Assembly: GCF_013001275.1 (NCBI RefSeq)
Contig: NZ_JABDMV010000089.1
Span: 1 to 37,052 of the forward strand
DNA length: 37,052 nucleotides
Reading direction: 5' to 3'
Origin: Flaviramulus sp.
GTDB lineage: Bacteria; Bacteroidota; Bacteroidia; Flavobacteriales; Flavobacteriaceae
How positions within the stretch are numbered: position 1 is the stretch's first letter; the number at the start of each line of letters is the position of its first letter. Below are positions 654-14,361 of this stretch, one piece after another. Position numbers and translations under genes: made by a program. The notes under the pieces were generated by a model. That model was given only the letters and a program-made list of their open reading frames with translations, ran no database searches and had not been told where the DNA came from.

Positions 654-1901
654 TTATACATCTTTACCTTTCATCATTTTATTCCAATATAAATAGGGGA
701 GCATGTATTTTTTTAGAATCCATAGTCTCCAATGTTCTTTACTAGAATCTGAGATAAGCATTTTCTTTAATTGTGGATCTGGAGTAAAATTATTGTCATA
801 ATCAAACTCTGCCAAAACCATTTTTCCGTAGTCTGTAACTATTGGACAGGATGAATAACCATTATATGATTTTGTGCCAAGTTTGTTATGATTAATGAGT
901 AGTGAAATATTATCGACTACTACCGGCACTTGTTTCCTAATTGCCGCACCAGTTTTTGCAGTAGGTAAAGCCACCACATCTCCTAATCCAAAAATATTTG
1001 AATATTTATTATGTTGCATGGTATGATGATTTACATCCAGCCACTTTGTTTCATTTACTAATGGAGAATCTTGAATAAATTTTGGAGCCACAGATGGAGG
1101 CGCCGTGTGTAGCATATCATAATGGATTCCGACTAAATCACCGTCTTTATAAACCTCTATATTTTTGTGATTAATTTCAGATTTGTTTGCACCTAAAGCA
1201 TACCACGCTATTTGTTTTTTGGCATCAATTTTCTTTAAATGGTGGCCAAAACGAAGATTAATATCTTTTCTTGAATTAACTTTTAATAGTGTATCTGCTA
1301 TAGATTTTAAACCAAAAATTACACCTCCATTTGTAGCGAATACAATATTAGTTTTATTTTTAACTCCAGTTTTTCTAAAATAATTTTCAGCTAAATACAT
1401 TATTTTTTGAGGTGCACCGCCACATTTAATTGGCGTGGTAGGTTGTGTAAATAAAGCTGTACCACCTTTGAAATTTTTAAGGACTTCCCAGGTGTGTAAA
1501 GGATCAGTATAATTACTACAAACGACTCCTTTATCTAAAGCTTCCTCTAAACCAGGAACTAATGAATTATCGTAGACTAAACCAGGGGCCACAACTAAAT
1601 AATCATAAGTAATTTCGCCACTAGACTTTGTTGAAACTAAATTACTTTTAGGTTTAAAACCAGATGCATAATCTTTAATCCAATCTACGCCATTAGGGAT
1701 AATATCTCCCATAGGGCGCGCCGTTTTATCATAATCGTATGTGCCGGCACCTACCAATGTCCATGCAGGTTGATAATAATGAGTATCAGCCGGTTCTATA
1801 ATTCCTATTTTGAAACGCTTATTCTTTTTTTGAAGTTGTGCAGCAACCATAATGCCTGCAGTTCCACCTCCAATAATGAGAATTTGATAATGTGTGTTCA
1901 T
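654..1901 (-). CDS. sqr: Type II sulfide:quinone oxidoreductase
   Basis: This is a 415-residue FAD-dependent enzyme of the human SQOR-like type II group, which oxidises sulfide at the membrane surface, passes electrons to quinone and gives the sulfane sulfur to a small thiol acceptor. An N-terminal FAD-binding motif (GGGTAG, residues 11-16) opens the protein. The two redox cysteines sit in TPIKCGGAPQK (Cys160) and YNGYSSCPIVTDYG (Cys352), both in strongly conserved type II contexts. A second flavin-site motif FGLGDVVALPTAKTGAA lies at 304-320. A further cysteine, Cys128 in VVCSNYT, sits where type I enzymes carry their third cysteine. The C-terminal tail around residues 395-410 (MLPYLYWNKMMKG) resembles the amphipathic membrane anchor. 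The promoter region has a GTAAC palindrome and a good -7 box. Flavocytochrome c sulfide dehydrogenase is the alternative, but motif context favours SQR. Confidence 0.93.
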   Translation of the reverse strand: MNTHYQILIIGGGTAGIMVAAQLQKKNKRFKIGIIEPADTHYYQPAWTLVGAGTYDYDKTARPMGDIIPNGVDWIKDYASGFKPKSNLVSTKSSGEITYDYLVVAPGLVYDNSLVPGLEEALDKGVVCSNYTDPLHTWEVLKNFKGGTALFTQPTTPIKCGGAPQKIMYLAENYFRKTGVKNKTNIVFATNGGVIFGLKSIADTLLKVNSRKDINLRFGHHLKKIDAKKQIAWYALGANKSEINHKNIEVYKDGDLVGIHYDMLHTAPPSVAPKFIQDSPLVNETKWLDVNHHTMQHNKYSNIFGLGDVVALPTAKTGAAIRKQVPVVVDNISLLINHNKLGTKSYNGYSSCPIVTDYGKMVLAEFDYDNNFTPDPQLKKMLISDSSKEHWRLWILKKYMLPYLYWNKMMKGKDV

Positions 1902-1969: not shown

Positions 1970-1983
1970 GTAACATAAGTTAC
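1970..1983. promoter_or_regulatory. GTAAC-N4-GTTAC operator, sqr-facing
   Basis: The sequence GTAAC-ATAA-GTTAC is an inverted repeat of two 5-base arms with a 4-base spacer. Its distance to the sqr -7 box places its centre near -40 of the inferred start of transcription, the class II position for Crp/Fnr activators. The same palindrome recurs at 2027, 8058 and 8929, always in promoter gaps of sulfur genes. The proposed binder is the Crp/Fnr protein encoded at 8951-9583; this is inference. Confidence 0.7.
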
Positions 1984-2026: not shown

Positions 2027-2040
2027 GTAACAATTGTTAC
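2027..2040. promoter_or_regulatory. GTAAC-N4-GTTAC operator, sorA-facing
   Basis: GTAAC-AATT-GTTAC is a perfect palindrome which extends symmetrically to 20 bases (2024-2043, with TTT and AAA flanks), making it the best of the four copies. It lies about 50 bases upstream of the sorA ATG. At the same distance used by the other promoters (base 2063) there is TATATTGT, only a partial match to TAnnTTTG, so the sorA -7 assignment is weaker than for the other three. This gap thus holds two operators, one for each divergent gene. Confidence 0.72.
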
Positions 2041-2083: not shown

Positions 2084-3328
2084 ATGAATGGAATAAATTT
2101 TAATCATTTGAAAAGAAGAAATTTTATTAAAAAAGCAACCTTAAGTAGTTTTGCTACTTTAATAGGATCAGAGATTGTTTTTGGTTCAAAAATGTTTGAA
2201 GGATATCAGCCTATCGCGTTGCAAGACCCTGATCCCTTTAAAATGTTTAGTAAAAACAAAGAAATGATTGTACTTAACGATAAACCATGGAATATCGAAG
2301 CACAAGCACATTTACTAGACGATAAAATCACTCCTAATTCTGCGATGTTTATTAGAAATAATGGACTTATACCAGAGAATATTGATGTGCGAAATTGGAC
2401 ACTTACAATTGATGGAGAATCTGTTAATAAAGAAAAAACATATACCCTAAACGAACTTAAGTCAAAGTTTAAGGAATATAGCTATCAGTTGACCTTAGAG
2501 TGCGGCGGTAATGGCAGGAGTGAATTCAATCCACCGGCCAAAGGAAATCAATGGACCGTAGGTGCGGTGCATTGCGCCAAATGGACTGGAATTCGTTTGC
2601 GGGATGTTCTTGATGATGTGGGAATAAAAAAAGATGCAGTATATATTGGATATCATTCATCCGATGTACATTTAAGTAGAGATCCATATAAAGAACCAAT
2701 ATCAAGAGGTGCACCAATATCAAAATCACTTCAAGAAGAAACTTTGTTAGCCTTTAAAATGAATGGTAAAGATATACCCTTAGTTCATGGTTATCCGCTG
2801 CGTTTAGTGGCAGGTGGTTGGCCAGCATCTGTTTCGGGTAAATGGGTAAACAGAATTAGTATAAGAAATAAAATACATGATGGAACTAAAATGACTGGTA
2901 CTGCATACCGTATACCTTGTGAACCTGTTGCGCCCGGCGATAAGGTAAAAGATGAGGATATGTGTATTATTGAATCAATGCCCGTAAAATCATTAATAAC
3001 ATTTCCTAAATCTGGGGCAACAATTAATGAAGGGAAATCTTTAAATATAAGAGGTCATGCATGGGCAGGTGAATTAGTTGTTTCTAAAATGGAATACTCA
3101 ATTGATTTTGGTGCGACCTGGAATGAATGTCAAATTGAATTACCAGTTAACCGTTTAGCTTGGCAGCACTTTTCTACCAGTATAAACTTCCCTAAAAAAG
3201 GATATTATGAGATTTGGGCAAGAGCTACGGACTCACAAGGAACTGCACAACCTATGATATTACCAGGTTGGAATCCGAAGGGTTATTTAAATAATGCCTG
3301 TCATAGAATCGCTATTAAAGTAAAATAA
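2084..3328 (+). CDS. sorA: Periplasmic molybdenum sulfite dehydrogenase, catalytic subunit
   Basis: This 414-residue protein is a sulfite oxidase-family molybdopterin enzyme, which oxidises sulfite to sulfate and passes electrons to a cytochrome c. The N-terminus has a twin-arginine signal (KRRNFIKKATLSSFATLIG, residues 10-28), so it should be exported folded with its cofactor. The molybdenum-ligand cysteine is Cys140 in LTLECGGNGR. The motif HGYPLRLVAGGWPASVSGKW, near residues 235-254, is typical of the cofactor domain. The C-terminal third is the Mo-co dimerisation domain (AWAG, MEYSIDFGATW, YYEIWARATDSQGTAQP, WNPKGYLNN). There is no fused heme domain; instead a cytochrome gene begins on the very next base. 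SoxC is the main alternative, but no soxD or other sox gene is in view, which favours SorA. Confidence 0.88.
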   Translation: MNGINFNHLKRRNFIKKATLSSFATLIGSEIVFGSKMFEGYQPIALQDPDPFKMFSKNKEMIVLNDKPWNIEAQAHLLDDKITPNSAMFIRNNGLIPENIDVRNWTLTIDGESVNKEKTYTLNELKSKFKEYSYQLTLECGGNGRSEFNPPAKGNQWTVGAVHCAKWTGIRLRDVLDDVGIKKDAVYIGYHSSDVHLSRDPYKEPISRGAPISKSLQEETLLAFKMNGKDIPLVHGYPLRLVAGGWPASVSGKWVNRISIRNKIHDGTKMTGTAYRIPCEPVAPGDKVKDEDMCIIESMPVKSLITFPKSGATINEGKSLNIRGHAWAGELVVSKMEYSIDFGATWNECQIELPVNRLAWQHFSTSINFPKKGYYEIWARATDSQGTAQPMILPGWNPKGYLNNACHRIAIKVK

Positions 3329-3805
3329 ATGTCACAGGAGGAAGATTTTCGAAAAGGTATAAAAGAAATATATCATAAATTAATGCTTTTTTTTAGCCTT
3401 TTTATTATTGCGGGCGCCTTTTTGTTGTTGTATGTACTAAATCCAAATTTAAATGTTTTCAACGCTAAAGAAAATAATTATGTTGAAACGCCTGTAATAG
3501 AATTAGATGAAGATCGAGTAGAAAACGGGATTCATGTAAGAACAGGATTAATTTCTGCGGATGGTTTAATGATAGTTGTGAATAATTGCACCAATTGCCA
3601 TTCAGCAAAGCTTGTAACTCAAAATAGAATGAATAAAGAGCGTTGGAATGCCACAATAAGGTGGATGCAAGAAACGCAAAATCTATGGGATTTAGGAAAA
3701 AATCAGGAAATTATAGTAGACTATTTAGTTGCTAATTATCCTGTAGAAGTAGTAGGCAGACGTGCTAATTTAACTGATATTGATTGGTATGAACTTAAGG
3801 ATTAG
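3329..3805 (+). CDS. Membrane-anchored monoheme cytochrome c, likely sulfite dehydrogenase electron acceptor
   Basis: This 158-residue protein begins directly after the sorA stop codon, so the two are surely co-translated. A single transmembrane helix spans about residues 17-38, leaving the rest in the periplasm. One c-type heme motif, NNCTNCHSAK, gives Cys87, Cys90 and His91; a likely distal ligand is Met113 in RWMQET. It plays the role of SorB, taking electrons from the molybdenum subunit to the respiratory chain. Unlike SorB of Starkeya it is anchored by its N-terminus rather than having a cleaved signal peptide, as judged by the charged residues and long hydrophobic stretch. The function is inferred from family and position. 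Confidence 0.82.
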   Translation: MSQEEDFRKGIKEIYHKLMLFFSLFIIAGAFLLLYVLNPNLNVFNAKENNYVETPVIELDEDRVENGIHVRTGLISADGLMIVVNNCTNCHSAKLVTQNRMNKERWNATIRWMQETQNLWDLGKNQEIIVDYLVANYPVEVVGRRANLTDIDWYELKD

Positions 3806-4733
3806 TATTGTAATTATTGTGTTAGCAGTATATGGTTGTAAAAAAGAATCAAACAGCAAAAATTTTGTAGGAGACATAAAGTCGTCAGAGTTTTCAAGTA
3901 AATATCTAATAGAAGCTGAAGAGTTATTAAAGATATTCAAAAACCCAAATATAAAAATAATTGATTTTAGAAAGCCAGAATTCTACTTAGAAGAACATTT
4001 GCCTAGAGCCATCAATATTTGGAGAACCGATATAGAAGATAAAACTTTTCCATATAAGGGCATGATGGCGAGCACTGCTCAAATAGAAAATTTATTTGGT
4101 AGTTTAGGAATTAGTGATGATAATACTATTATCATTTATGATAATAACGGATTATGTGATTCAGCAAGATTATGGTGGATTTTACAGAATTATGATTTTT
4201 CAAATGTAAAACTTTTACATGGAGGAATTAAGGCTTGGAAAATGAATAATGGAACAATATCAACAACAATCCCTAAAAGTGAAAAAGTCAATTTTACGTT
4301 GCCAAAAAGCCCTTCAATGAAATATTATATTTCTAAAGATGAAATGGTAGAAGCTATAATTAATGAAAAGATGATATTAGATACTAGGACAGATGATGAG
4401 TTTTCTGGGAAACGTCAAAAATCAGGATCTTTTCGTGGTGGTCGCATCCCAAATAGTAAAGTGATAGATTGGTCTAACGCCATTAACTATCATGGTAATA
4501 TGAAGCTAAAACCACATGAGCGACTCTTTGAAATTTATAAAAATTTCGCATTAAAAAATGATACACTAATTGTTTATTGCCACAGCGGTGTTCGTTCTGC
4601 GCACACAACCTTTGTATTAACTCAAGTATTAGGTTATAAAAATGTAAAAAACTACGATGGTTCCTGGACAGAGTGGAGTTATTTTAACGACTTACCAATA
4701 GAACAAGATAGTATTACTAAGATATTTAATTAA
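3789..4733 (+). CDS. Two-domain rhodanese lipoprotein (thiosulfate/mercaptopyruvate sulfurtransferase type)
   Basis: I start this gene at the ATG at 3789 rather than a TTG 9 bases upstream, because it directly precedes a good lipoprotein signal (MNLRISIVIIVLAVYGCKK, lipid-attachment Cys17). The 314-residue product has two rhodanese domains. The first (about 35-150) has LCDSARLWW near its pseudo-active site. The second (about 175-300) carries the active loop CHSGVRS with Cys264. Enzymes of this build move sulfane sulfur between thiosulfate, persulfide or mercaptopyruvate and a nucleophile such as cyanide or a thiol. The start overlaps the end of the cytochrome gene by 17 bases, so it belongs to the sor operon, and its lipid anchor puts it on the same periplasmic side as SorA. 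Confidence 0.87.
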   Translation: MNLRISIVIIVLAVYGCKKESNSKNFVGDIKSSEFSSKYLIEAEELLKIFKNPNIKIIDFRKPEFYLEEHLPRAINIWRTDIEDKTFPYKGMMASTAQIENLFGSLGISDDNTIIIYDNNGLCDSARLWWILQNYDFSNVKLLHGGIKAWKMNNGTISTTIPKSEKVNFTLPKSPSMKYYISKDEMVEAIINEKMILDTRTDDEFSGKRQKSGSFRGGRIPNSKVIDWSNAINYHGNMKLKPHERLFEIYKNFALKNDTLIVYCHSGVRSAHTTFVLTQVLGYKNVKNYDGSWTEWSYFNDLPIEQDSITKIFN

Positions 4734-4735
4734 TT

Positions 4736-5623
4736 ATGGAAAAATATATAAATGCTTTTGTAAACGCTTTTAATGGCACTGTAAATTGGACATGGAAATC
4801 TATAATTTTTGAAGTGCCTTGGTATACAAACTATTTCTGGGGATTAATTTTTATATCTCTATTTGTATGGATTTTGGAAATGATTTTTCCTTGGAGGAAA
4901 GACCAATCAGTTTTTAGAAAAGATTTCTGGCTAGATGGTTTTTACATGTTTTTTAATTTTTTCATTTTCTCTATAGCCATTAGTGGATTTTATAAATTGT
5001 TACAAGTAGCATTTGCCGATATTGGAATAACAAATAAAACTTTAGCTTTATTCGATCCTTCAGGATGGCCTTTGTGGCTGCAATTATTACTATTTTTTAT
5101 TGTTCTTGATTTTGTTCAATGGTTTACTCATACTTTGTTACATAAGTATCCTTTATTGTGGCGGTTTCATAAAGTACATCACAGCGTGAAGGAAATGGGT
5201 TTTGCAGCACACTTACGTTATCATTGGATGGAAAACATTTTATACAAACCGTTAAAAACTTTTGGAGTTATGATATTGTTTGGTTTTGAGCCAGAGCAGG
5301 CATATATAGTTCATTTTATGGCCATTACTATTGGCCATTTTAATCATTCAAATATTAAAATAACTTGGGGGCCACTTAAATATATTATTAATAACCCTGT
5401 AATGCATTTATATCATCATTCCTATGTTTTGCCTAAAGGAAAATATGGTGTTAATTTTGGCATTAGTTTGAGTTTGTGGGATTATATTTTTAAAACTAAT
5501 TACATTCCAGAAGATAGTGGCACGATTAAACTCGGTTTTCCTGGAGACGAAAAATTTCCAAAAGATTTTATAGGACAAAATACTTATGGATTTACACCAC
5601 GGAAACCTAAAAAGGGAAACTAA
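4736..5623 (+). CDS. Sterol desaturase/fatty acid hydroxylase-family membrane di-iron enzyme
   Basis: This 295-residue integral membrane protein has the histidine clusters of the fatty acid hydroxylase superfamily: HTLLH, then HKVHHS, HFNHS and, further on, HLYHHS. These bind two irons and insert oxygen into lipid C-H bonds. Hydrophobic segments lie at about residues 30-50, 70-95, 115-135 and 170-200. The gene starts two bases after the rhodanese stop codon and is the last gene of the sor operon. Related proteins hydroxylate sterols, carotenoids, alkylglycerols or fatty acids, none with an obvious tie to sulfite oxidation. The family is clear; the substrate is unknown. Confidence 0.85.
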   Translation: MEKYINAFVNAFNGTVNWTWKSIIFEVPWYTNYFWGLIFISLFVWILEMIFPWRKDQSVFRKDFWLDGFYMFFNFFIFSIAISGFYKLLQVAFADIGITNKTLALFDPSGWPLWLQLLLFFIVLDFVQWFTHTLLHKYPLLWRFHKVHHSVKEMGFAAHLRYHWMENILYKPLKTFGVMILFGFEPEQAYIVHFMAITIGHFNHSNIKITWGPLKYIINNPVMHLYHHSYVLPKGKYGVNFGISLSLWDYIFKTNYIPEDSGTIKLGFPGDEKFPKDFIGQNTYGFTPRKPKKGN

Positions 5624-5648
5624 TTTGAAATTATTTTTTAATTAGTTT
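5617..5648. terminator. Inverted repeat spanning two convergent stop codons, possible weak terminator
   Basis: AAACTAATT (5617-5625) and its exact complement AATTAGTTT (5640-5648) flank a 14-base loop. The repeat covers the stop codon of the hydroxylase gene and the last codons and stop of the convergent methyltransferase gene. The stem is AT-rich and lacks a long U tract on either strand, so terminator function is only a suggestion. Confidence 0.3.
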
Positions 5649-6218
5649 AATAAATAACTCTTTGCCTTTTCTACTTGCTTCAGAATTATAGCAGTTTTCC
5701 ATAATTTCAATATTAAAATGCGTTTCGAATAAATCAATATAGGCTTTCTTATTACCACCAAAGGGAGGTTGATCATCATTTAATGGTAAATTGAAAAGCA
5801 AACCAACTATTTTACCGCTAGGATTTAAAATTTGATGCATTTTTTTAACATAATTTTCACGCAGATTTGGATTTATTGCACAGAAAAAGGTTTGCTCGAT
5901 TACTAAATCAAAAGTTTCTTTTAGTTTAAAAAAATCTTTAAGTATTAAGTTTGAATTGGGAAAGGAAGGAACTCGGTTCTTGATATTTTGCAATGCTGTT
6001 TTTGAAACATCAACAACATATACATTTTTAAATCCTTTTTTAAACAAATATTCCGCTTCATACGAATTACCACCTCCTGGAATTAAAATTTTTAAACTTT
6101 TATCTTCCAACTGATCTATATAAGCTTTAATAGGCGGAGATATACTGCCTAAATCCCATCCGATATTGTTATTTATGTATCTATTGTCCCAGTAGGCGTC
6201 GTTAAGTTCTAAATCCAT
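5631..6218 (-). CDS. TPMT-family SAM-dependent thiol methyltransferase
   Basis: The start is taken as the ATG at 6218, one base after the stop of the preceding rhodanese gene; an open frame extends 20 codons further but those overlap the rhodanese coding region. The product is 195 residues. The opening motif AYWDNRYINNNIGWDLG with SPPI, and the SAM-binding loop ILIPGGGNSYEAEYL, are typical of the thiopurine S-methyltransferase/thiol methyltransferase superfamily. Members methylate thiols, bisulfide, selenium or tellurium species. As the last gene of the PDO-rhodanese-methyltransferase operon it could methylate sulfide or a thiol product to volatile methylated sulfur, but that is inferred from context. 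Confidence 0.83.
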   Translation of the reverse strand: MDLELNDAYWDNRYINNNIGWDLGSISPPIKAYIDQLEDKSLKILIPGGGNSYEAEYLFKKGFKNVYVVDVSKTALQNIKNRVPSFPNSNLILKDFFKLKETFDLVIEQTFFCAINPNLRENYVKKMHQILNPSGKIVGLLFNLPLNDDQPPFGGNKKAYIDLFETHFNIEIMENCYNSEASRKGKELFIKLIKK

Positions 6219-6219
6219 T

Positions 6220-6588
6220 TTATTTTTTACTCCAAGTACTCCATCCTCCAGAAAAATCATAAATCGTTGAAAAACCAAGTTCTTCCATTATTTTACTAGC
6301 CTTGTTACTTCTTCCTCCAGAATAGCAATAAATATAAACTGGTTGGTTTTTGTTTAGTTTTTCAATGGCTATTTTGAAATTCGCTTCGTTTGAAACATCA
6401 ATATTTATGGCATCATCGATATGTCCTTCAAAATATTCATTAGCCTTTCTTACATCAACAAACTGAACATTTTTACCAATAACGTCTTGGTTCAATTTTG
6501 TTAAATCAATGGTGTTTATTTTCTTACTCACTTGACCGTTACAGGAAGTGAAAGCTACTATTACAAATAAAATTAATATGTTTTTCAT
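6220..6588 (-). CDS. Single-domain rhodanese lipoprotein
   Basis: This 122-residue protein has a lipoprotein signal peptide with the lipobox FTSCNG (Cys16) and one rhodanese domain. The active-site loop is CYSGGRS with Cys88; FVDVRKANEYFEGHI and FSGGWSTW are the other typical family stretches. It should be anchored outside the inner membrane, possibly handling sulfane sulfur in the periplasm. It lies 6 bases downstream of the PDO gene and one base upstream of the methyltransferase start, so the three are translated from one message. Confidence 0.9.
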   Translation of the reverse strand: MKNILILFVIVAFTSCNGQVSKKINTIDLTKLNQDVIGKNVQFVDVRKANEYFEGHIDDAINIDVSNEANFKIAIEKLNKNQPVYIYCYSGGRSNKASKIMEELGFSTIYDFSGGWSTWSKK

Positions 6589-6594
6589 CTGTTT

Positions 6595-8004
6595 TTATAA
6601 AGTTGTTGGGCAAACATAATCTGAAACTTTTATACCAGTTTCTTTAATGTCTTTAAACCCTCCTTGGATGTCAATTAAATTGTGAATACCTCTACTTTTT
6701 AAAATTGAAGCAGCTATCATGCTTCTATATCCTCCAGCACAATGCACATAAAAAGTTTCAGTGTCTGGAAATTGTGGCAGATAATCGTTAATATAATCTA
6801 AAGGAGTGTTTTTAGCATTTTCAACGTGTTCAGACAGAAATTCGCCTTCTTTTCGAACATCAAAAATTGGAACTGCGCTATCTTGTATGGCTTTTTTAAA
6901 TTTAGATGCAGAAATAGAACTAACTGTGTCAATTTCCTTGCCCGCTTTTTTCCAAGATTCAAATCCTCCTTCTAAGTACCCAATAGTAGCATCAAAACCA
7001 ACTCTTGATAATCGTGTAATTGTTTCTTCTTCTCTACCTTCAGGAGTTACAAGCAGAATAGGTTGTTTTACATCTGCAATTAAAGCACCTACCCAAGGAG
7101 CAAAACTACCATCTAAACCAATAAAAATTGATCGTGGAATATGGCCTTTTGTAAAGTCATCTTGATGGCGCACATCCAATACTACTGATTCGGTTTGGTT
7201 GGCAGCTATTTCAAAAGCATCCGGTGTTAAGGCTTGAGCACTTCGTTCTAGAACGTCTTCAAAATCATCATAACCTTCTTTGTTCATTTTCACATTTAAA
7301 GGAAAGTACTGCGGTGGCGGTGTTAAGCCTTCAGTGACTTCGTCAATAAACTCTTTTTTTGTCATATCTGCTCGAAGTGCATAGTTGGTAGCTTTCTGGT
7401 TTCCAAGTGTATCTACCGTTTCTTTACTCAAATTTTTTCCGCAAGAAGAACCTGCACCATGTGCTGGATAAACAATAACATCATCTGCCAAAGGCATTAT
7501 TTTTGTTCGTAAACTATCAAACAAAAACCCAGCTAAATCTTTCTCGGTAATTTTTCCCATTTTTTGAGCCAAATCAGGTCTTCCAACATCACCTAAAAAC
7601 AAAGTGTCTCCACTAAAAATAGCATGGTCTTTTCCGTTTTCATCTTTCAAAAGGAATACCGAGCTTTCCATAGTATGCCCTGGAGTATGTAATACCTTAA
7701 ATATTATATCTCCTAACTTAAATTCTTGGCCATCTTTTGCAATTAGAGCATCAAAAGAAGTCTCAGCATTCGGACCAAAAATAATGGGTGCCCCAGTTTC
7801 TTTTGAGAGTGTTACGTGCCCACTAACAAAATCGGCATGAAAGTGAGTTTCAAAAATGTACTTTATTTTTGCATTATCAGATCTAGCCCTATCAATATAT
7901 GGTTGAACTTCACGTAAAGGATCTATAATTGCTACTTCTCCTTTGCTTTCAATATAGTATGCACCTTGTGCTAAACAGCCGGTATATATTTGTTCTATTT
8001 TCAT
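6595..8004 (-). CDS. CstB-like persulfide dioxygenase-rhodanese fusion
   Basis: This 469-residue cytoplasmic protein has three modules. Residues 1-240 are a metallo-beta-lactamase-fold persulfide dioxygenase of the ETHE1/CstB kind: HFHADFVSGH (His54, His56, Asp58), HTPGHT (His110), SGDTLF (Asp133) and YPAHGAGSSCGK (His182, Cys188). Residues 265-355 are a rhodanese fold whose catalytic position has no cysteine (TPEGREE), so it is a structural or pseudo domain. Residues 362-455 are an active rhodanese with Cys422 in VHCAGGYRS. The architecture and length match staphylococcal CstB, which oxidises low-molecular-weight persulfides and forms thiosulfate. Here it is expected to oxidise the persulfide made by SQR to sulfite, possibly going on to thiosulfate. 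Its promoter carries a GTAAC operator, and two further genes follow in the operon. Confidence 0.93.
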   Translation of the reverse strand: MKIEQIYTGCLAQGAYYIESKGEVAIIDPLREVQPYIDRARSDNAKIKYIFETHFHADFVSGHVTLSKETGAPIIFGPNAETSFDALIAKDGQEFKLGDIIFKVLHTPGHTMESSVFLLKDENGKDHAIFSGDTLFLGDVGRPDLAQKMGKITEKDLAGFLFDSLRTKIMPLADDVIVYPAHGAGSSCGKNLSKETVDTLGNQKATNYALRADMTKKEFIDEVTEGLTPPPQYFPLNVKMNKEGYDDFEDVLERSAQALTPDAFEIAANQTESVVLDVRHQDDFTKGHIPRSIFIGLDGSFAPWVGALIADVKQPILLVTPEGREEETITRLSRVGFDATIGYLEGGFESWKKAGKEIDTVSSISASKFKKAIQDSAVPIFDVRKEGEFLSEHVENAKNTPLDYINDYLPQFPDTETFYVHCAGGYRSMIAASILKSRGIHNLIDIQGGFKDIKETGIKVSDYVCPTTL

Positions 8005-8057: not shown

Positions 8058-8071
8058 GTAACGTGAGTTAC
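8058..8071. promoter_or_regulatory. GTAAC-N4-GTTAC operator of the PDO operon
   Basis: GTAAC-GTGA-GTTAC sits in the 74-base gap between the tauE stop codon and the PDO start. It gives the PDO operon its own controlled promoter although it lies downstream of tauE on the same strand. The arms are identical to those of the other three copies; only the spacer bases differ. Confidence 0.7.
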
Positions 8072-8078
8072 ATTTCTT

Positions 8079-8879
8079 TTAAAGAAAAAACTCCATGTAA
8101 AAAATAAAGATTGCCATTGCTATAATAAAATAGCCAAATCCTTTTTTTAGTTTCTCCCCATTTATAAAATTACTTAAATAACTACCAATAAATATTCCTA
8201 CAAATGATAATCCCGTAAATACCATTAAAAATGGCCAATCTATTTCCATAGTTAATGCATCACCCAAGAAGAAGCCCATTAATGACTTGAAGGCAATAAT
8301 TATAAGGGATGTAGCAACTGCGACCTTCATTTCTACGTTTGCTAATATTACTAGTGCAGGTATAATTAAAAACCCACCACCAGCACCTATCATGCCTGTT
8401 ATGGCTCCTACAATTAATCCTTCAATCAAAATTAACGGATAATTGTATTTTACTTTGCCAGTTATTATTTTCTCTTTACCATTTTTCAACATCGAAAAAG
8501 CTGCAGGTATCATTAATAGTGCAAAAAGACCGAACATAGCCATCCTTCTAGTAAAGATAAACCCACTAAAAGAAAGTAAAATATTGGGTAAAACTGGTAT
8601 TACAAAATATCTAATTAAAGTAACTCCTATTATTGCAGGAATCCCAAAAACTATCGCTGTTCTCCAATCTACTAATCCTTTAAAATGTTGTTTTATTCCA
8701 CCAACTAAAGCACTAAAGCCCACAATAAACAAGGAGTATGCCGTAGCAGCTTTTTCATTGATGGAGAACAAATATGCTAATACTGGTACAGCTAAGATGG
8801 AACCGCCTCCACCAATAAGTCCTAAAGAAACACCAATTATTAATGCACTTAGATATCCAAAGAATTCAAATAATCCCAT
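8079..8879 (-). CDS. TauE/SafE-family sulfite exporter
   Basis: The start is the ATG at 8879 (266 residues, MGLFEFFGYLSALIIG). An upstream in-frame ATG at 8915 is rejected because the promoter -7 box (8899-8906) lies downstream of it, so it would not be on the transcript. The protein is almost entirely hydrophobic, with the two family glycine motifs GLIGGGGSILAVP and GMIGAGGGFLIIP at the start of each half. TauE/SafE proteins export sulfite, sulfoacetate and similar anions. Between a cytoplasmic sulfite producer (PDO) and a periplasmic sulfite oxidase (SorA), sulfite export is the natural reading. Confidence 0.9.
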   Translation of the reverse strand: MGLFEFFGYLSALIIGVSLGLIGGGGSILAVPVLAYLFSINEKAATAYSLFIVGFSALVGGIKQHFKGLVDWRTAIVFGIPAIIGVTLIRYFVIPVLPNILLSFSGFIFTRRMAMFGLFALLMIPAAFSMLKNGKEKIITGKVKYNYPLILIEGLIVGAITGMIGAGGGFLIIPALVILANVEMKVAVATSLIIIAFKSLMGFFLGDALTMEIDWPFLMVFTGLSFVGIFIGSYLSNFINGEKLKKGFGYFIIAMAIFIFYMEFFL

Positions 8880-8898
8880 TATTTCACAAAATTTAATG

Positions 8899-8906
8899 CA
8901 AAAATA
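8899..8906 (-). promoter_or_regulatory. -7 promoter box of tauE (TATTTTTG)
   Basis: The leftward sequence TATTTTTG matches TAnnTTTG exactly. Its edge is 29.5 bases from the centre of the operator at 8929-8942, the same distance as at sqr. It leaves a leader of only about 13 bases before the ATG at 8879 and rules out the upstream ATG. Confidence 0.62.
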
Positions 8907-8928
8907 GGGGTACACTTTAAGCCTCGCA

Positions 8929-8942
8929 GTAACATTAGTTAC
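8929..8942. promoter_or_regulatory. GTAAC-N4-GTTAC operator of tauE
   Basis: GTAAC-ATTA-GTTAC lies between the regulator stop codon (8951) and the tauE start. It is the copy nearest the Crp/Fnr gene, which supports that protein as the binder. Confidence 0.7.
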
Positions 8943-8950
8943 ACTACAGG

Positions 8951-9583
8951 CTAAATATCTTTAATGATAATAAAATTTCTATGAAGTTCGATTTTACCTA
9001 AGTTTTCCAATTTTTTTAATAATCGTGAAATCACAACCCGAGAAGTATGTAGTTCATAGGCAATTTCTTGATGCGTGTTATGCACGATATTATCATTGGT
9101 AAGTCTTGCCTTTTCATTTAAATATTTTAAAAGTCTTTCATCCATTTTTAAGAATGCGATATTATCAATGGTTTCTAACATTTCGTTTAATCTGTTATGA
9201 TAGCTTTTAAAAACAAAATTCCTCCAACTTTTGTATTTAGCCGACCATTCTTCCATTTTCTGAATAGGTATCATAATTAGTTTTGCATCTGTTTCTGCGA
9301 TGGCACGTATTTCGCTTTTAGTTTCTCCTAAACAACAGGTAAGAGTCATAGCGCAAGTATCGCCTTTTTCAAGAAAGTAGAGTAGGAGTTCGTCCCCATC
9401 ATTATCTTCTCTTAAAATTTTTATCGCGCCAGATATAAGCAAAGGCATAGATTTTAAATAATTACCAATGTCAATCATAACAAACCCTTCAGGAATTTCC
9501 TTAAATGTTCCTACTTGATTTATTTCTTCCAAAAGCGTGGCCTCAAAAAGATGACCATAATTCTCTTTTAATTCTTGTATCAT
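8951..9583 (-). CDS. Crp/Fnr-family transcriptional regulator, proposed sulfur regulon activator
   Basis: The start is the ATG at 9583 (210 residues, MIQELKENYGHLFEATLLEEI); a TTG four codons upstream is less likely. Residues 20-110 form the cNMP-binding-like sensor fold and the C-terminal 70 a winged helix with THQEIAYELHTSRVVISRLL, the Crp/Fnr helix-turn-helix. In the recognition helix the leading Arg of SR is kept, but the Glu that Crp uses to read TGTGA is replaced by Val, so a different half-site such as GTAAC is reasonable. Three cysteines lie close together in the sensor domain, in GDTCAMTLTCCLGE (Cys77, Cys83, Cys84); this is not the four-cysteine iron-sulfur pattern of Fnr. No operator is seen upstream; the gene starts 39 bases after hutI and may be read from the hut operon. 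Confidence 0.9.
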   Translation of the reverse strand: MIQELKENYGHLFEATLLEEINQVGTFKEIPEGFVMIDIGNYLKSMPLLISGAIKILREDNDGDELLLYFLEKGDTCAMTLTCCLGETKSEIRAIAETDAKLIMIPIQKMEEWSAKYKSWRNFVFKSYHNRLNEMLETIDNIAFLKMDERLLKYLNEKARLTNDNIVHNTHQEIAYELHTSRVVISRLLKKLENLGKIELHRNFIIIKDI

Positions 9584-9622: not shown

Positions 9623-10864
9623 TTAGGTGCATATCATTTTACCTTCTAAATAAATATTTTCGATTAAGTTTGAACCGAATGCGTATGGTATAAAACTAAA
9701 TGAATTTATTGGTTTAGTCATAATTAAGTTGGCTACTTTACCAATAGAAATTGATCCCAATTGCTTTTCTAATCCCATAGCATAAGCTCCGTTTATTGTT
9801 GCTGCATTAATAGCTTCTTCAGGAGTCATTTTCATTTTAATACACGCCGTTGAAACCACAAAATTCATGTTGCCGGAAGGAGACGAACCTGGATTATAAT
9901 CGGTTGCTAATGCTATTGGTAAACCTGCACTTATCATTTTACGAGCTGGAGTATATGGAATGCCTAAAAAATAAGAGCAGCCTGGTAAGGCCACAGGCAT
10001 AGTTTTCGTGTTTTTTAAAGATTCGATATCCGTTATTCGCATTTCCTCCAGATGATCTACAGATAATGCCTCATACTTTATACCCGCTTGTAGACCTCCA
10101 ATGGCAGTGAACTGATTGACATGAATTTTAGGCACTAATCCATGTTTTTTGCCAGCTTGCAAAATGAGTTCGGTGTCTTCTACGGAAAAATATCCCGTTT
10201 CACAAAACACATCAATATATTCAGCTAAATTTTCATTAGCTACTTTTGGTATCAATTCGTTAATAACGAGTTGAACAAATCCTGCTTTATTATTTTTGAA
10301 TTCACTTGGTAGAGCATGAGCGGCTAATAGTGTGGCTTTTATCTTGATTGGGTAATTTTCCTTTAATCGTTTTATAACTCTAAGCATTTTTAATTCTGCT
10401 TCTACCGTTAGGCCATATCCTGATTTAATTTCGATAGCTCCAGTACCCATTTGAATGACTTCTTCTACTCTCGCTTTACTTTGCAGATATAATTCTTCTT
10501 CGGAAGAATCTTGAAGTTTTTTTGCTGAGTTTAATATGCCGCCACCGTTATTTGCAATTTCTTCATATGTTAAACCATTAATTCTGTCAACAAATTCGCC
10601 CTCTCGATTTCCAGCGTAAACAATATGTGTATGTGAATCACACCATGCGGGCAAGATTATTTTACCTGATGCGTCGATGATATTATCGACCTTCAAATCA
10701 GGACAATTTTTCATCATTCCAAAATCAGCTATCAAACCATTATATACAACTAAAAATGCATTTTTAATAGTAGGTAATACATTCATTTCAGAACCTGAAA
10801 TAAAGGAGATGGGTTGTTCACGAACTTGAACTAATTCTTTGATGTTTTTGAATAATGTTGTCAT
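9623..10864 (-). CDS. hutI: Imidazolonepropionase
   Basis: This 413-residue amidohydrolase carries out the third step of histidine breakdown, opening imidazolone-5-propionate to N-formimino-L-glutamate. The metal site motif is WCDSHTHIVYAGNR (His78, His80), followed by the family stretches KIHVNQFTAIGG and ATDYNPGSSPSGNM. Length is normal for HutI (about 400-415). The ATG overlaps the last base of the hutU stop codon (TAATG), so translation is coupled. It is the last hut gene of the operon. Confidence 0.96.
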   Translation of the reverse strand: MTTLFKNIKELVQVREQPISFISGSEMNVLPTIKNAFLVVYNGLIADFGMMKNCPDLKVDNIIDASGKIILPAWCDSHTHIVYAGNREGEFVDRINGLTYEEIANNGGGILNSAKKLQDSSEEELYLQSKARVEEVIQMGTGAIEIKSGYGLTVEAELKMLRVIKRLKENYPIKIKATLLAAHALPSEFKNNKAGFVQLVINELIPKVANENLAEYIDVFCETGYFSVEDTELILQAGKKHGLVPKIHVNQFTAIGGLQAGIKYEALSVDHLEEMRITDIESLKNTKTMPVALPGCSYFLGIPYTPARKMISAGLPIALATDYNPGSSPSGNMNFVVSTACIKMKMTPEEAINAATINGAYAMGLEKQLGSISIGKVANLIMTKPINSFSFIPYAFGSNLIENIYLEGKMICT

Positions 10865-12861
10865 TAAAAAAGGTCGTTTAATAATTCATCGGCAACTAAG
10901 TTAGGCAAAGTAACTTTAAGATTTGGTGTACGTTTCATTTCTCTTTTTATGGCGAATAAGGCCTCGTCATTTCTTGCCCAACTTCTTCGTGCCACACCAT
11001 TATTAACATCATAAAACAACATACTTTTTAATCTTGATTCTGATTCTTGTGTACCATCTAACAGCATACCAAAACCACCATTTATTACTTCGCCCCAACC
11101 AACGCCACCACCGTTATGAATAGAAACCCAAGTAGCACCTCTAAAGCTGTCTCCAATCACATTATGAATAGCCATATCTGCCGTAAATTTACTTCCATCA
11201 TAAATATTAGATGTTTCACGATAAGGTGAATCTGTACCGCTAACATCATGATGATCTCGCCCTAATACAACTGGTCCAATTTCGCCTTCTGCAATTGCAT
11301 TATTAAAAGCTTCAGCAATTTTGATTCGACCTTCAGCATCGGCATATAAAATACGGGCTTGCGAGCCAACTACCATTTTGTTTTTTTTGGCATCTTTAAT
11401 CCAAGTGATGTTGTCTTGCATTTGAAGTTGAATTTCTTCTGGAGCATTTTTCATAATACTTTGCAATACCTTCATTGCAATTTTATCTGTTTTATCTAAA
11501 TCTTCAGGTTTTCCTGAAGTACAAACCCATCTAAAAGGACCAAATCCGTAGTCAAAACACATGGGACCCAAAATATCTTGTACATAAGAGGGGTATTTAA
11601 AATCGATATTATTAGCTTCCATTACATCAGCGCCGGCCCTTGAGGCCTCTAATAAAAAGGCATTTCCATAATCGAAAAAATAAGTGCCTTTGGCAGCATG
11701 TTTATTTATTGCGTTTGCATGACGTATTAATGTCTCTTGCACGCGTTTTTTAAAAATTTTAGGCTCTTCTCTTAATAGCCTATTCGCTTCGTCATACGAA
11801 ATATCAACAGGGTAATAACCGCCTGTCCAAGGAATATGTAATGAGGTTTGATCTGAACCAACATGAATAAATATGCTTTCAGAATCGAAGTGCTCCCATA
11901 CATCAACAATGTTTCCAATAAATGCTATTGAAACAATTTCTTGACTTTTTTGAGCTTGTTTTACTCGTGAAATTAATTCTTCCATCGAATCAATTAGAAC
12001 ATCCACCCAGCCTTGCTCAAAACGTTTTGTTGCGGCTTTCGGGTTTATTTCTGCGGCAATGGTAATGCATCCAGCAATGTTTCCGGCTTTGGGTTGTGCG
12101 CCACTCATACCACCTAGACCAGCAGTTAAAAATATTTTTCCATTGGGCGTTTCATTTTTTGATAAAATTTTACGGAAAGCATTCATAACTGTAATAGTTG
12201 TTCCGTGAACAATGCCTTGTGGACCTATGTACATAAATGAACCTGCCGTCATTTGACCGTATTGTGTAACTCCGAGGGCATTGAATTTTTCCCAATCATC
12301 GGGTTGTGAATAGTTTGGAATCATCATGCCATTGGTAACAACAACTCGTGGGGCATTTTTTGATGATGGAAACAAACCCATTGGATGCCCCGAATATATA
12401 TGTAACGTTTGTTCATCGGACATGATAGCCAAATATTGCATAGTTAATATATACTGAGCCCAATTCTGAAAAACGGCTCCATTACCGCCATAAGTAATCA
12501 ATTCTTCAGGGTGTTGTGCTACTGCGGGATTTAAATTATTTTCAATCATCAACATGATTGCTGCAGCTTGAATAGATTTAGCTGGATATTTATCTATAGT
12601 TCTTGAATAAATATCATAATCGGGTTTAAAACGATACATATATATTCTACCAAAATCACTTAATTCTTGAGCAAATTCTTTTGCTAATATTTCATGCCAT
12701 TTTTCGGGAAAATATCGAAGTGCGTTTCTTACTGCTAATTGCTTTTCCTCAACAGATAAAATATCCTTTCTGTTGGGCGCTCTATTAGCTTCTTTTGGAT
12801 ATGCTTTTTTTTCTGGTAATTCAGTTGGAATCCCTTGCAATATTTGTTCTTTGAACGTCAT
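10864..12861 (-). CDS. hutU: Urocanate hydratase (urocanase), long form
   Basis: This 665-residue enzyme converts urocanate to imidazolonepropionate using tightly bound NAD+ as an electrophile. Motifs seen are GLGGMSGAQPKAG (NAD+ site), and GPMCFDYGFGPFRWVCTSGKP around the active-site region, split by the conserved cysteines. At 665 residues it is about 110 longer than the Pseudomonas-type enzyme (about 557) and closer in length to the animal-type urocanases; long forms are common in Bacteroidota. It lies 9 bases downstream of hutH and overlaps hutI by one base. Confidence 0.97.
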   Translation of the reverse strand: MTFKEQILQGIPTELPEKKAYPKEANRAPNRKDILSVEEKQLAVRNALRYFPEKWHEILAKEFAQELSDFGRIYMYRFKPDYDIYSRTIDKYPAKSIQAAAIMLMIENNLNPAVAQHPEELITYGGNGAVFQNWAQYILTMQYLAIMSDEQTLHIYSGHPMGLFPSSKNAPRVVVTNGMMIPNYSQPDDWEKFNALGVTQYGQMTAGSFMYIGPQGIVHGTTITVMNAFRKILSKNETPNGKIFLTAGLGGMSGAQPKAGNIAGCITIAAEINPKAATKRFEQGWVDVLIDSMEELISRVKQAQKSQEIVSIAFIGNIVDVWEHFDSESIFIHVGSDQTSLHIPWTGGYYPVDISYDEANRLLREEPKIFKKRVQETLIRHANAINKHAAKGTYFFDYGNAFLLEASRAGADVMEANNIDFKYPSYVQDILGPMCFDYGFGPFRWVCTSGKPEDLDKTDKIAMKVLQSIMKNAPEEIQLQMQDNITWIKDAKKNKMVVGSQARILYADAEGRIKIAEAFNNAIAEGEIGPVVLGRDHHDVSGTDSPYRETSNIYDGSKFTADMAIHNVIGDSFRGATWVSIHNGGGVGWGEVINGGFGMLLDGTQESESRLKSMLFYDVNNGVARRSWARNDEALFAIKREMKRTPNLKVTLPNLVADELLNDLF

Positions 12862-12870
12862 TCTATTAAA

Positions 12871-14361
12871 TTATTTTACTATTAATGAGCGATTAACTAC
12901 CAGATTAATCATTTGGTCGATATCAGTCTTTATGGCCCTGTCGTCTTCAAGTTTTTTAACTTTACTTCTTATAATTTTAAAATTTTCTTCTACTATTTTT
13001 GAAAATGTTTGAGGTCTTCTAAACTCCAATGCTTGCGCAGCATACATGAGCTCGATTGCCAGTATTTTTTCAAGATTACCAAGTATTTGATTGAATTGTC
13101 TACCTGAAATGCTACCCATAGAAACATGATCTTCTTGTCCCAATGATGTGGGTATGCTATCTGCGGAAGGTGGGAAACATAAAGACTTGTTTTCTGTTAC
13201 TAATGCAGCGGTAGTATATTGAGGTATCATAAATCCAGAATTTAAACCTCCTCCGGTAGTTAATAACCGTGGTAAACCATATTTTCCTTCAATAAGTAAA
13301 TAACATCTTCTGTCTGAAATATTTCCTAATTCGGAAGCAGCAATTGATGCATAATCTAATGCCATTGCTAAAGGTTGTCCATGAAAATTACCGCCAGAAA
13401 TTGCGACCGTATCACTCAAAATAATCGGATTATCGGTAACCGAATTCATTTCTATTTCCGTCAATTTTTTTAAATGATAAAACGCGTTTCTGGAAGCACC
13501 ATGAACTTGCGGAATACAGCGCATAGAATATGGATCTTGAACACGTTCACAGTTTTCATGCGACATAATGTTTTCAGAATTTTTAAAAAGCAATCGCATC
13601 CGTTTAGCAACTTTTAAATTCCCTTTAAATGGTCTGATACTGTGCAATGCCTTTTTAAATGGTGAAGCACTTCCTTTATAGCCCTCTATACTCATAGCGC
13701 CTGCTAAATCGGCTAAATCGAGTAAGTAGTTCATTTTAGAAAGCCCAGTAATGGCATGTGCTAAAATAAATTGTGTGCCGTTTATTAATGCTAAGCCCTC
13801 TTTTGCTTGTAATTGAATTGGTTTTAAATTATGCTTTTTAAGTACATTTATAGCACGTGTTGGTTTATTATTCACCCAGATCTCACCTTGTCCTATCAAG
13901 GGCAAAAATAAATGTGATAATGGTGCTAAATCTCCTGATGCACCAACCGATCCTTGAGAAGGAACAACCGGTAATAAATCATTTTCAATAAAATAAATAA
14001 TGCGCTCGATAACTTCTAATCTAATTCCAGAAAAACCCAAGCACAACGCGTGTACTTTACAAATCATCATTATTTTTGAAATTTGTTTTTCAATGGCATT
14101 TCCAACTCCAACTGCATGTGTGATAAGTAAGTTTTCTTGAAGTTTGTTAGTTTCTGTTGGCGTGATTTGAACATCACATAATGGACCAAACCCCGTATTT
14201 ATGCCGTAAATGGCTTTATCAGACTTTGCCATTATTTCAACTCGGTTTCTACTATTATTAACTTTTTTAATAGCTTCATCCGTTAGTGTAGTAACTAAAC
14301 TTCCGATTGAGATGCTAATGACTTTTTTTACAGAAAGTCTATCGATTCCATATTTGAACAT
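12871..14361 (-). CDS. hutH: Histidine ammonia-lyase
   Basis: This 496-residue enzyme deaminates histidine to urocanate, the first step of the pathway. The Ala141-Ser142-Gly143 triad in GSVGASGDLAPLSH forms the MIO electrophile. The N-terminal YGINTGFG supplies the usual active-site tyrosine (Tyr52). The family C-terminal motifs DHVSMGSISGR and MYAAQALEFRRP are present. First gene of a hutH-hutU-hutI operon with a -7 box at 14391-14398. No hutG or hutF is in view, so the last step must be encoded elsewhere. Confidence 0.96.
   Translation of the reverse strand: MFKYGIDRLSVKKVISISIGSLVTTLTDEAIKKVNNSRNRVEIMAKSDKAIYGINTGFGPLCDVQITPTETNKLQENLLITHAVGVGNAIEKQISKIMMICKVHALCLGFSGIRLEVIERIIYFIENDLLPVVPSQGSVGASGDLAPLSHLFLPLIGQGEIWVNNKPTRAINVLKKHNLKPIQLQAKEGLALINGTQFILAHAITGLSKMNYLLDLADLAGAMSIEGYKGSASPFKKALHSIRPFKGNLKVAKRMRLLFKNSENIMSHENCERVQDPYSMRCIPQVHGASRNAFYHLKKLTEIEMNSVTDNPIILSDTVAISGGNFHGQPLAMALDYASIAASELGNISDRRCYLLIEGKYGLPRLLTTGGGLNSGFMIPQYTTAALVTENKSLCFPPSADSIPTSLGQEDHVSMGSISGRQFNQILGNLEKILAIELMYAAQALEFRRPQTFSKIVEENFKIIRSKVKKLEDDRAIKTDIDQMINLVVNRSLIVK

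Follow-up and report, generated by a model that had tools for sequence, protein, structure and literature searches.

The window, the whole stretch of 37,052 nucleotides analysed here from Flaviramulus sp., carries a gene for a Crp/Fnr-family regulator beside genes of sulfide and sulfite metabolism, which raises the question of whether the protein controls these genes, in which direction, and whether the cysteines of its sensor domain could perceive sulfur. The regulator belongs to the Crp/Fnr superfamily: it holds the domain pair cNMP_binding (PF00027, E 1e-7) and HTH_Crp_2 (PF13545, E 1e-8), both above the Pfam cut-offs, and Foldseek matches it to Crp, Fnr and NtcA, in a group that also includes the Thermus Crp and PDB 3dv8. 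A TTG start four codons upstream would give a protein of 214 aa; the Met of the ATG at 9583 is kept in 94% of 186 three-cysteine homologues. Residue numbers refer to the 210-aa form (residue n of the 214-aa form is n-4 here).

A shared operator before sulfur genes

The regulator gene, tauE and the pdo-rhodanese-TPMT unit lie on one strand, the sorA-sorB-mercaptopyruvate sulfurtransferase-fatty-acid hydroxylase genes lie on the opposite one, and sqr stands at the left (Table 1); the order regulator-tauE-pdo is common in other Flavobacteriaceae genomes. A GTG at 8915, in front of tauE, falls upstream of the predicted transcription start. A cluster resembling hutI-hutU-hutH for histidine degradation (named by eye; 9623-14361, minus strand) ends about 40 bp before the regulator gene. 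Since the latter follows these genes in the same orientation and none of the window's operators precedes it, it may here be transcribed by read-through from them. The hut genes stand outside the conserved context, HutI being found solely at the window's own locus.

Table 1. Genes and promoter elements of the sulfur gene cluster (positions in the window)
Feature	Position	Strand	Remarks
Sulfide:quinone oxidoreductase-like protein (sqr)	654..1901	minus	best NCBIfam match type III SQR, below cut-off
Operator GTAACTTATGTTAC before sqr	1970..1983	minus	-7 box TACTTTTG at 1940-1947
Operator GTAACAATTGTTAC before sorA	2027..2040	plus	TAnnTTGT box 2063-2070, standard distance
SorA-like sulfite dehydrogenase (molybdopterin)	2084..3328	plus	
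SorB-like c-type cytochrome	3329..3805	plus	
Two-domain rhodanese / 3-mercaptopyruvate sulfurtransferase-like	3780..4733	plus	
Fatty-acid-hydroxylase-superfamily protein	4736..5623	plus	
TPMT-like thiol S-methyltransferase	5631..6278	minus	PF05724; last gene of the pdo transcription unit
Single-domain rhodanese	6220..6588	minus	PF00581; 7 bp after pdo
Persulfide-dioxygenase-like protein (pdo)	6595..8004	minus	metallo-beta-lactamase domain and two rhodanese domains
Operator GTAACTCACGTTAC before pdo	8058..8071	minus	-7 box TAAATTTG shifted downstream by one base; spacer 23
TauE/SafE-family sulfite/sulfur transporter (tauE)	8079..8882	minus	PF01925, ATG start
Operator GTAACTAATGTTAC before tauE	8929..8942	minus	-7 box TATTTTTG at 8899-8906; predicted centre -41.5
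Crp/Fnr-family regulator gene	8951..9583	minus	210 aa, ATG at 9583
Codons of the three-cysteine segment GDTCAMTLTCCLGE	9314..9364, approximate	minus	predicted short helix 78-85

A palindrome, GTAAC-N4-GTTAC, was first spotted as GTAACATTAGTTAC upstream of tauE. The exact pattern GTAACNNNNGTTAC occurs at four sites in the window (1970, 2027, 8058 and 8929), which flank sqr/sorA, pdo and tauE and all lie in sulfur-gene promoters, in agreement with the sequence-only reading, which had placed every operator before sulfur genes. The 2.68-Mb genome holds six exact copies, these four and two intragenic ones (contigs C69 and C110), which fall within genes that by eye resemble those of an H+-pyrophosphatase and of SurA and were dismissed as chance occurrences. 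A relaxed pattern combined with the -7 box described below added a second tauE homologue on another contig, whose operator has one mismatch and whose -7 box is intact and correctly spaced (L231, G000:C111:1288-1331), and a gene for a small CPxCH membrane protein, with two mismatches (L232, G000:C13:1134-1177); in other genomes, too, members of both families follow the operator.

Across other loci, an ORF begins no more than 250 bp downstream of 329 of the 375 exact operator sites. Leading the list of targets are pdo and the rhodaneses, with 100 proteins from 86 loci, and tauE with 75. A PF04143 gene of the sulfur-transport family comes next with 29, then the small CPxCH membrane protein with 27; the regulator itself follows with 18 and sqr with 17, and the fatty-acid hydroxylase and a SulP permease have 16 each. 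At the lower end stand a 1-Cys peroxiredoxin with 10, a polysulfide-reductase-like ferredoxin/NrfD protein with 6 and sorA with 3. Because these loci were taken around regulator genes, genes near the regulator are over-represented in the counts, a bias from which the whole-genome search below is free. Several targets drew attention in their own right: the fatty-acid-hydroxylase or OlsE-like membrane protein turns up repeatedly in the sulfide regulon and has an operator to itself in the 16 loci; the frequently targeted CPxCH protein gave no Pfam match in the one homologue scanned; and in several genera (including L247 and L250) the operator is also carried by a gene for outer-membrane efflux, TolC-like by eye.

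We then sampled 149 Flavobacteriaceae genomes, one per genus. Regulator matches at E <= 1e-15 were present in 125 of them, 115 of which hold matches close enough to count as orthologues. A whole-genome search for the composite of GTAAC-N4-GTTAC followed 20-24 bases later by TAnnTTT returned 364 sites in these 115 genomes, that is 3.17 per genome, against 0.40 for the pattern read backwards as a control. The density was 0.2 per genome in the 10 genomes with distant homologues only and 0.17 in the 24 with none, hence at or below the control level wherever an orthologue was missing. Given that 141 of the 149 genomes have pdo, and that the operator was absent at the adjacent pdo-tauE genes of the three regulator-less genomes examined (G020, G043 and G085), these densities indicate that operator and regulator co-occur, largely independently of pdo. 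The control of sulfur genes by this protein, as proposed earlier from the window, is thus strongly supported by the operator regulon, as far as genome comparison can carry it.

Promoter geometry and half-site specificity

When 291 non-redundant promoters were aligned on the operator, the sole other strongly conserved element was TAnnTTTG at the fixed distance of +29 to +36 from the operator centre (T in 87%, A in 82%, TTT in 81-93% and G in 59%). In Flavobacterium psychrophilum the -7 box covers -12 to -5 (PMC9723704), and equating the two elements would set the centre of the operator at -41.5, as in class II activation by Crp and NtcA. The window promoters of sqr and tauE fit this geometry exactly and that of pdo has one extra base; sorA carries a TAnnTTGT variant, which resembles the SM5 promoter motif of F. 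psychrophilum (PMC9723704). A canonical TTG at -33 cannot form because the invariant C of the operator occupies its first base; 111 of 308 promoters still have TG at -34/-33.

Both features, the -41.5 centre and the loss of the -33 TTG, make an activator much likelier than a repressor. A repressor would occlude the -33 region, which the operator does overlap, and be released by sulfane sulfur in the manner of SqrR/BigR; the RSS-responsive regulators SqrR/BigR, CstR and SoxR are reportedly all repressors. Nevertheless, a centre at exactly -41.5 in promoters devoid of the canonical TTG is the layout of a class II activator, and we regard repression as highly improbable. Taken with the operator searches, the promoter alignments make it very likely that the protein acts as a Crp/Fnr class II activator of a sulfide-oxidation regulon through GTAAC-N4-GTTAC, and it very probably turns on H2S detoxification and oxidation genes across most Flavobacteriaceae genera.

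The recognition helix reads S181-R182-V183-V184-I185-S186-R187 (SRVVISR), so that SR is kept and Val replaces the Glu of Crp, as had been noted in the sequence-only reading together with the expectation of a half-site other than TGTGA. The half-site is GTAAC, and it covaries with Val. Glu-type relatives are flanked by GTGA-N6-TCAC in 16 of 31 loci and by GTAA-N6-TTAC in 3 of 31, versus 4 and 84 of 145 loci, respectively, for Val-type regulators (Fisher p 5e-11 for GTGA and 6e-7 for GTAA, uncorrected for kinship). In these flanking sequences, Val or Glu in the recognition helix is accordingly paired with GTAA or GTGA half-sites. NtcA, whose operator is GTA-N8-TAC at -41.5 (PMC3898017), also has Val at the Crp-Glu position in our alignment, and together with the covariation this bears out the expectation drawn from the Glu-to-Val exchange.

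In several genera, the same sulfur cluster contains a second Crp-like regulator of Glu type (SREVISR) with C77 only and about 36-41% identity (loci L042, L053, L057, L059, L065, L069 and L105). This suggests that two regulators with different half-sites stand side by side in those clusters.

The cysteines of the sensor domain

C77, C83 and C84, in GDTCAMTLTCCLGE, are all the cysteines of the protein, just as the sequence-only reading had listed them, and its distinction from the four-cysteine cluster of Fnr also holds, because the N-terminal cysteine cluster is absent; a [4Fe-4S] cluster of the Fnr type was rejected on the same grounds, with three cysteines only. In the alignment to Crp they correspond to I70, F76 and E77, respectively. 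The cAMP contacts of Crp, E72 and R82, are replaced by Met (94% at E72) and Lys in the orthologues, while the equivalent of Crp S83 is invariant; with Met, Lys and Val at the E72, R82 and helix Glu positions, the protein departs from cAMP-type Crp at each of these sites. A first AlphaFold run with 32 close orthologues left the cassette at pLDDT < 50; after nine paralogues had been added to the input, mean pLDDT rose from 76 to 85, and the better model assigns the short helix 78-85 to the phosphate-binding cassette, with a local pLDDT of about 68, too low to read sulfur-sulfur geometry. The three cysteines are thus predicted to belong to the phosphate-binding cassette, the part that in Crp takes up cAMP. 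Alignment and model together would put three thiols in the position at which the superfamily binds its ligands; a covalent change at that position could stand in for a bound ligand.

Among 179 orthologues of at least 55% identity, C77, C83 and C84 are conserved in 100, 98.9 and 96.6%, respectively, against a column mean of 74%. With one genome per genus in the Flavobacteriaceae, pdo, tauE or sqr lies within 4 kb of 91 of 109 three-cysteine regulators versus 2 of 33 others; the rest of the Bacteroidota showed no such contrast (4/18 vs 6/22). The expectation that the cysteines be conserved wherever the gene context is the same stood only in part: the linkage agrees with it, but in three genomes (G143, G025 and G016) the regulators retain C77 alone in this segment, and pdo is nevertheless preceded by an exact operator (G025 has additional paralogues). 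A requirement of C83/C84 for sulfur control was therefore rejected, and the pair would support, but not be indispensable for, the control of sulfur genes. On the Flavobacteriaceae tree the pair changes by loss 5-7 times, and a tree-corrected comparison of the pair with pdo linkage found on average about 3 of 5 independent pairs concordant and 0 opposite, too few to be significant. C77 is near-invariant even in the Glu-type paralogues with other DNA specificity; it may hence be structural, and its invariance alone is no proof of sensing.

Possible sulfane-sulfur sensing and its alternatives

The regulon, the operator, the activator-type geometry and the conserved pocket cysteines are supported by the comparisons above, and C77, C83 and C84 make the protein a good candidate for a sulfur sensor. 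We postulate a homodimeric Crp/Fnr-family protein that activates the genes for oxidation of sulfide to sulfate and would be triggered by a rise of intracellular sulfane sulfur, i.e., the persulfide or polysulfide produced by Sqr. Within the phosphate-binding cassette, C77 together with the pair C83/C84 would become persulfidated or joined by a di- or polysulfide link. Such a modification would do the work of the small ligand, which is cAMP for Crp and 2-oxoglutarate for NtcA, and bring the HTH domains into a conformation that binds DNA. Bound to GTAAC-N4-GTTAC at -41.5, the dimer would then recruit RNA polymerase in class II fashion before sqr, sorAB, tauE and pdo, the products of which would consume the inducer. 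The ligand, the chemistry and the allosteric direction in this model are inferred. Taken as a whole, the model of a dimeric activator switched on by sulfane sulfur at C77 and C83/C84 is one that we lean towards; for the narrower claim that C77, with C83/C84, senses sulfane sulfur, the balance is about equal, and persulfide chemistry at these cysteines is plausible. A broader and tentative suggestion is that, throughout Bacteroidota, such a protein is the principal class II activator of sulfide oxidation, its thiols on the cyclic-nucleotide cassette forming a covalent sulfane-sulfur switch.

Possibly, the protein activates the sulfur regulon while its cysteines are structural or bind a cofactor (heme, metal or Fe-S), the signal being CO, O2, NO or a metal. 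The invariance of C77 in paralogues of other DNA specificity and the lineages that keep the operator without C83/C84 would suit such a role, and CooA, a CO sensor, has a heme-ligating Cys in what would be the corresponding segment. However, no His is conserved in the sensor domain of the homologues (the sole invariant His lies in the HTH domain; H129, residue 133 of the 214-aa form, reaches 78%), which argues against a CooA-type heme; there are three cysteines only, none of them N-terminal as in Fnr, and nearly the whole regulon is sulfur chemistry, with no CO genes. We therefore consider a cofactor or structural role unlikely. A thiol switch that responds to oxidation in general or to electrophiles, and has the sulfide genes as one set among its targets, could draw on a disulfide among the vicinal C83-C84 and C77 and on the 1-Cys peroxiredoxin found in the regulon at 10 loci; since the usual peroxide genes are absent from the regulon in the loci examined, where sulfide, sulfane sulfur and sulfite form the centre, it appears quite unlikely. 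We find it very unlikely that a non-covalent ligand (sulfite, thiosulfate or a nucleotide) fills the cassette and the cysteines merely shape the pocket: an anion site may persist, given the invariant equivalent of Crp S83 and the Lys at R82, and sulfite is made, transported or consumed by regulon members (SorA, TauE), but the ribose contact E72 of Crp is Met in 94%, and conserved thiols line the pocket.

The model of a sulfane-sulfur-responsive activator can be set against known systems. Like the regulator, NtcA has the Crp fold, Val at the Crp-Glu position and class II activation from GTA-N8-TAC at -41.5 (PMC3898017), but it responds to 2-oxoglutarate, governs a nitrogen regulon, is only about 21% identical and lacks the three-cysteine cassette in the alignment; against the NtcA equivalog TIGR03697 (NCBIfam) the regulator scored 35 bits, with a cut-off of 245. 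It would thus act NtcA-like on DNA and yet, by sequence, stand outside the NtcA family. E. coli Crp shares the fold, the dimer helix, the HTH, the cassette position and the activator geometry, and differs in the Glu that reads GTGA, in the cAMP contacts and in its regulon. Fnr belongs to the same superfamily, with the same fold and the S and R of the recognition helix; unlike the regulator, whose three cysteines all lie in the cassette, it has its cysteine cluster at the N-terminus and binds a TTGAT operator. The nearest solved relative by both sequence and fold, PDB 3dv8 (a Crp/Fnr protein from Eubacterium rectale), has C-x5-C at the positions of C77 and C83, lacks C84 and is about 22% identical.

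Known persulfide sensors have other folds, and one of them, FisR, is an activator with three conserved cysteines (PMC9774590). FisR, SqrR/BigR and CstR adjoin and control sqr, pdo or transport genes and have several conserved cysteines, as here, but are unrelated in fold (sigma54 activator, ArsR and CsoR). Two traits of persulfide regulators are recognizable in the genome comparisons: the operator regulon points to control of sulfide-oxidation genes, and in the Flavobacteriaceae cysteine conservation largely follows the sulfur context, with exceptions such as the three named above. We found no Crp/Fnr-type persulfide sensor in the open-licence literature, in which matching of the phrase "Crp/Fnr" is uncertain, and no description of a regulator of Flavobacteriaceae sulfide-oxidation genes in the literature searched; the operator GTAAC-N4-GTTAC is new here.

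The covariation of Val and Glu with GTAA and GTGA half-sites offers a specificity rule for Crp-like proteins of Bacteroidota. Flavobacteriaceae are major marine heterotrophs, and pdo occurs in 141 of the 149 genera sampled; for their sulfide oxidation, a regulator, an operator, an activator-type promoter layout and a list of targets can now be named. If the proposed sensing is true, it would extend sulfane-sulfur control to the Crp/Fnr superfamily.
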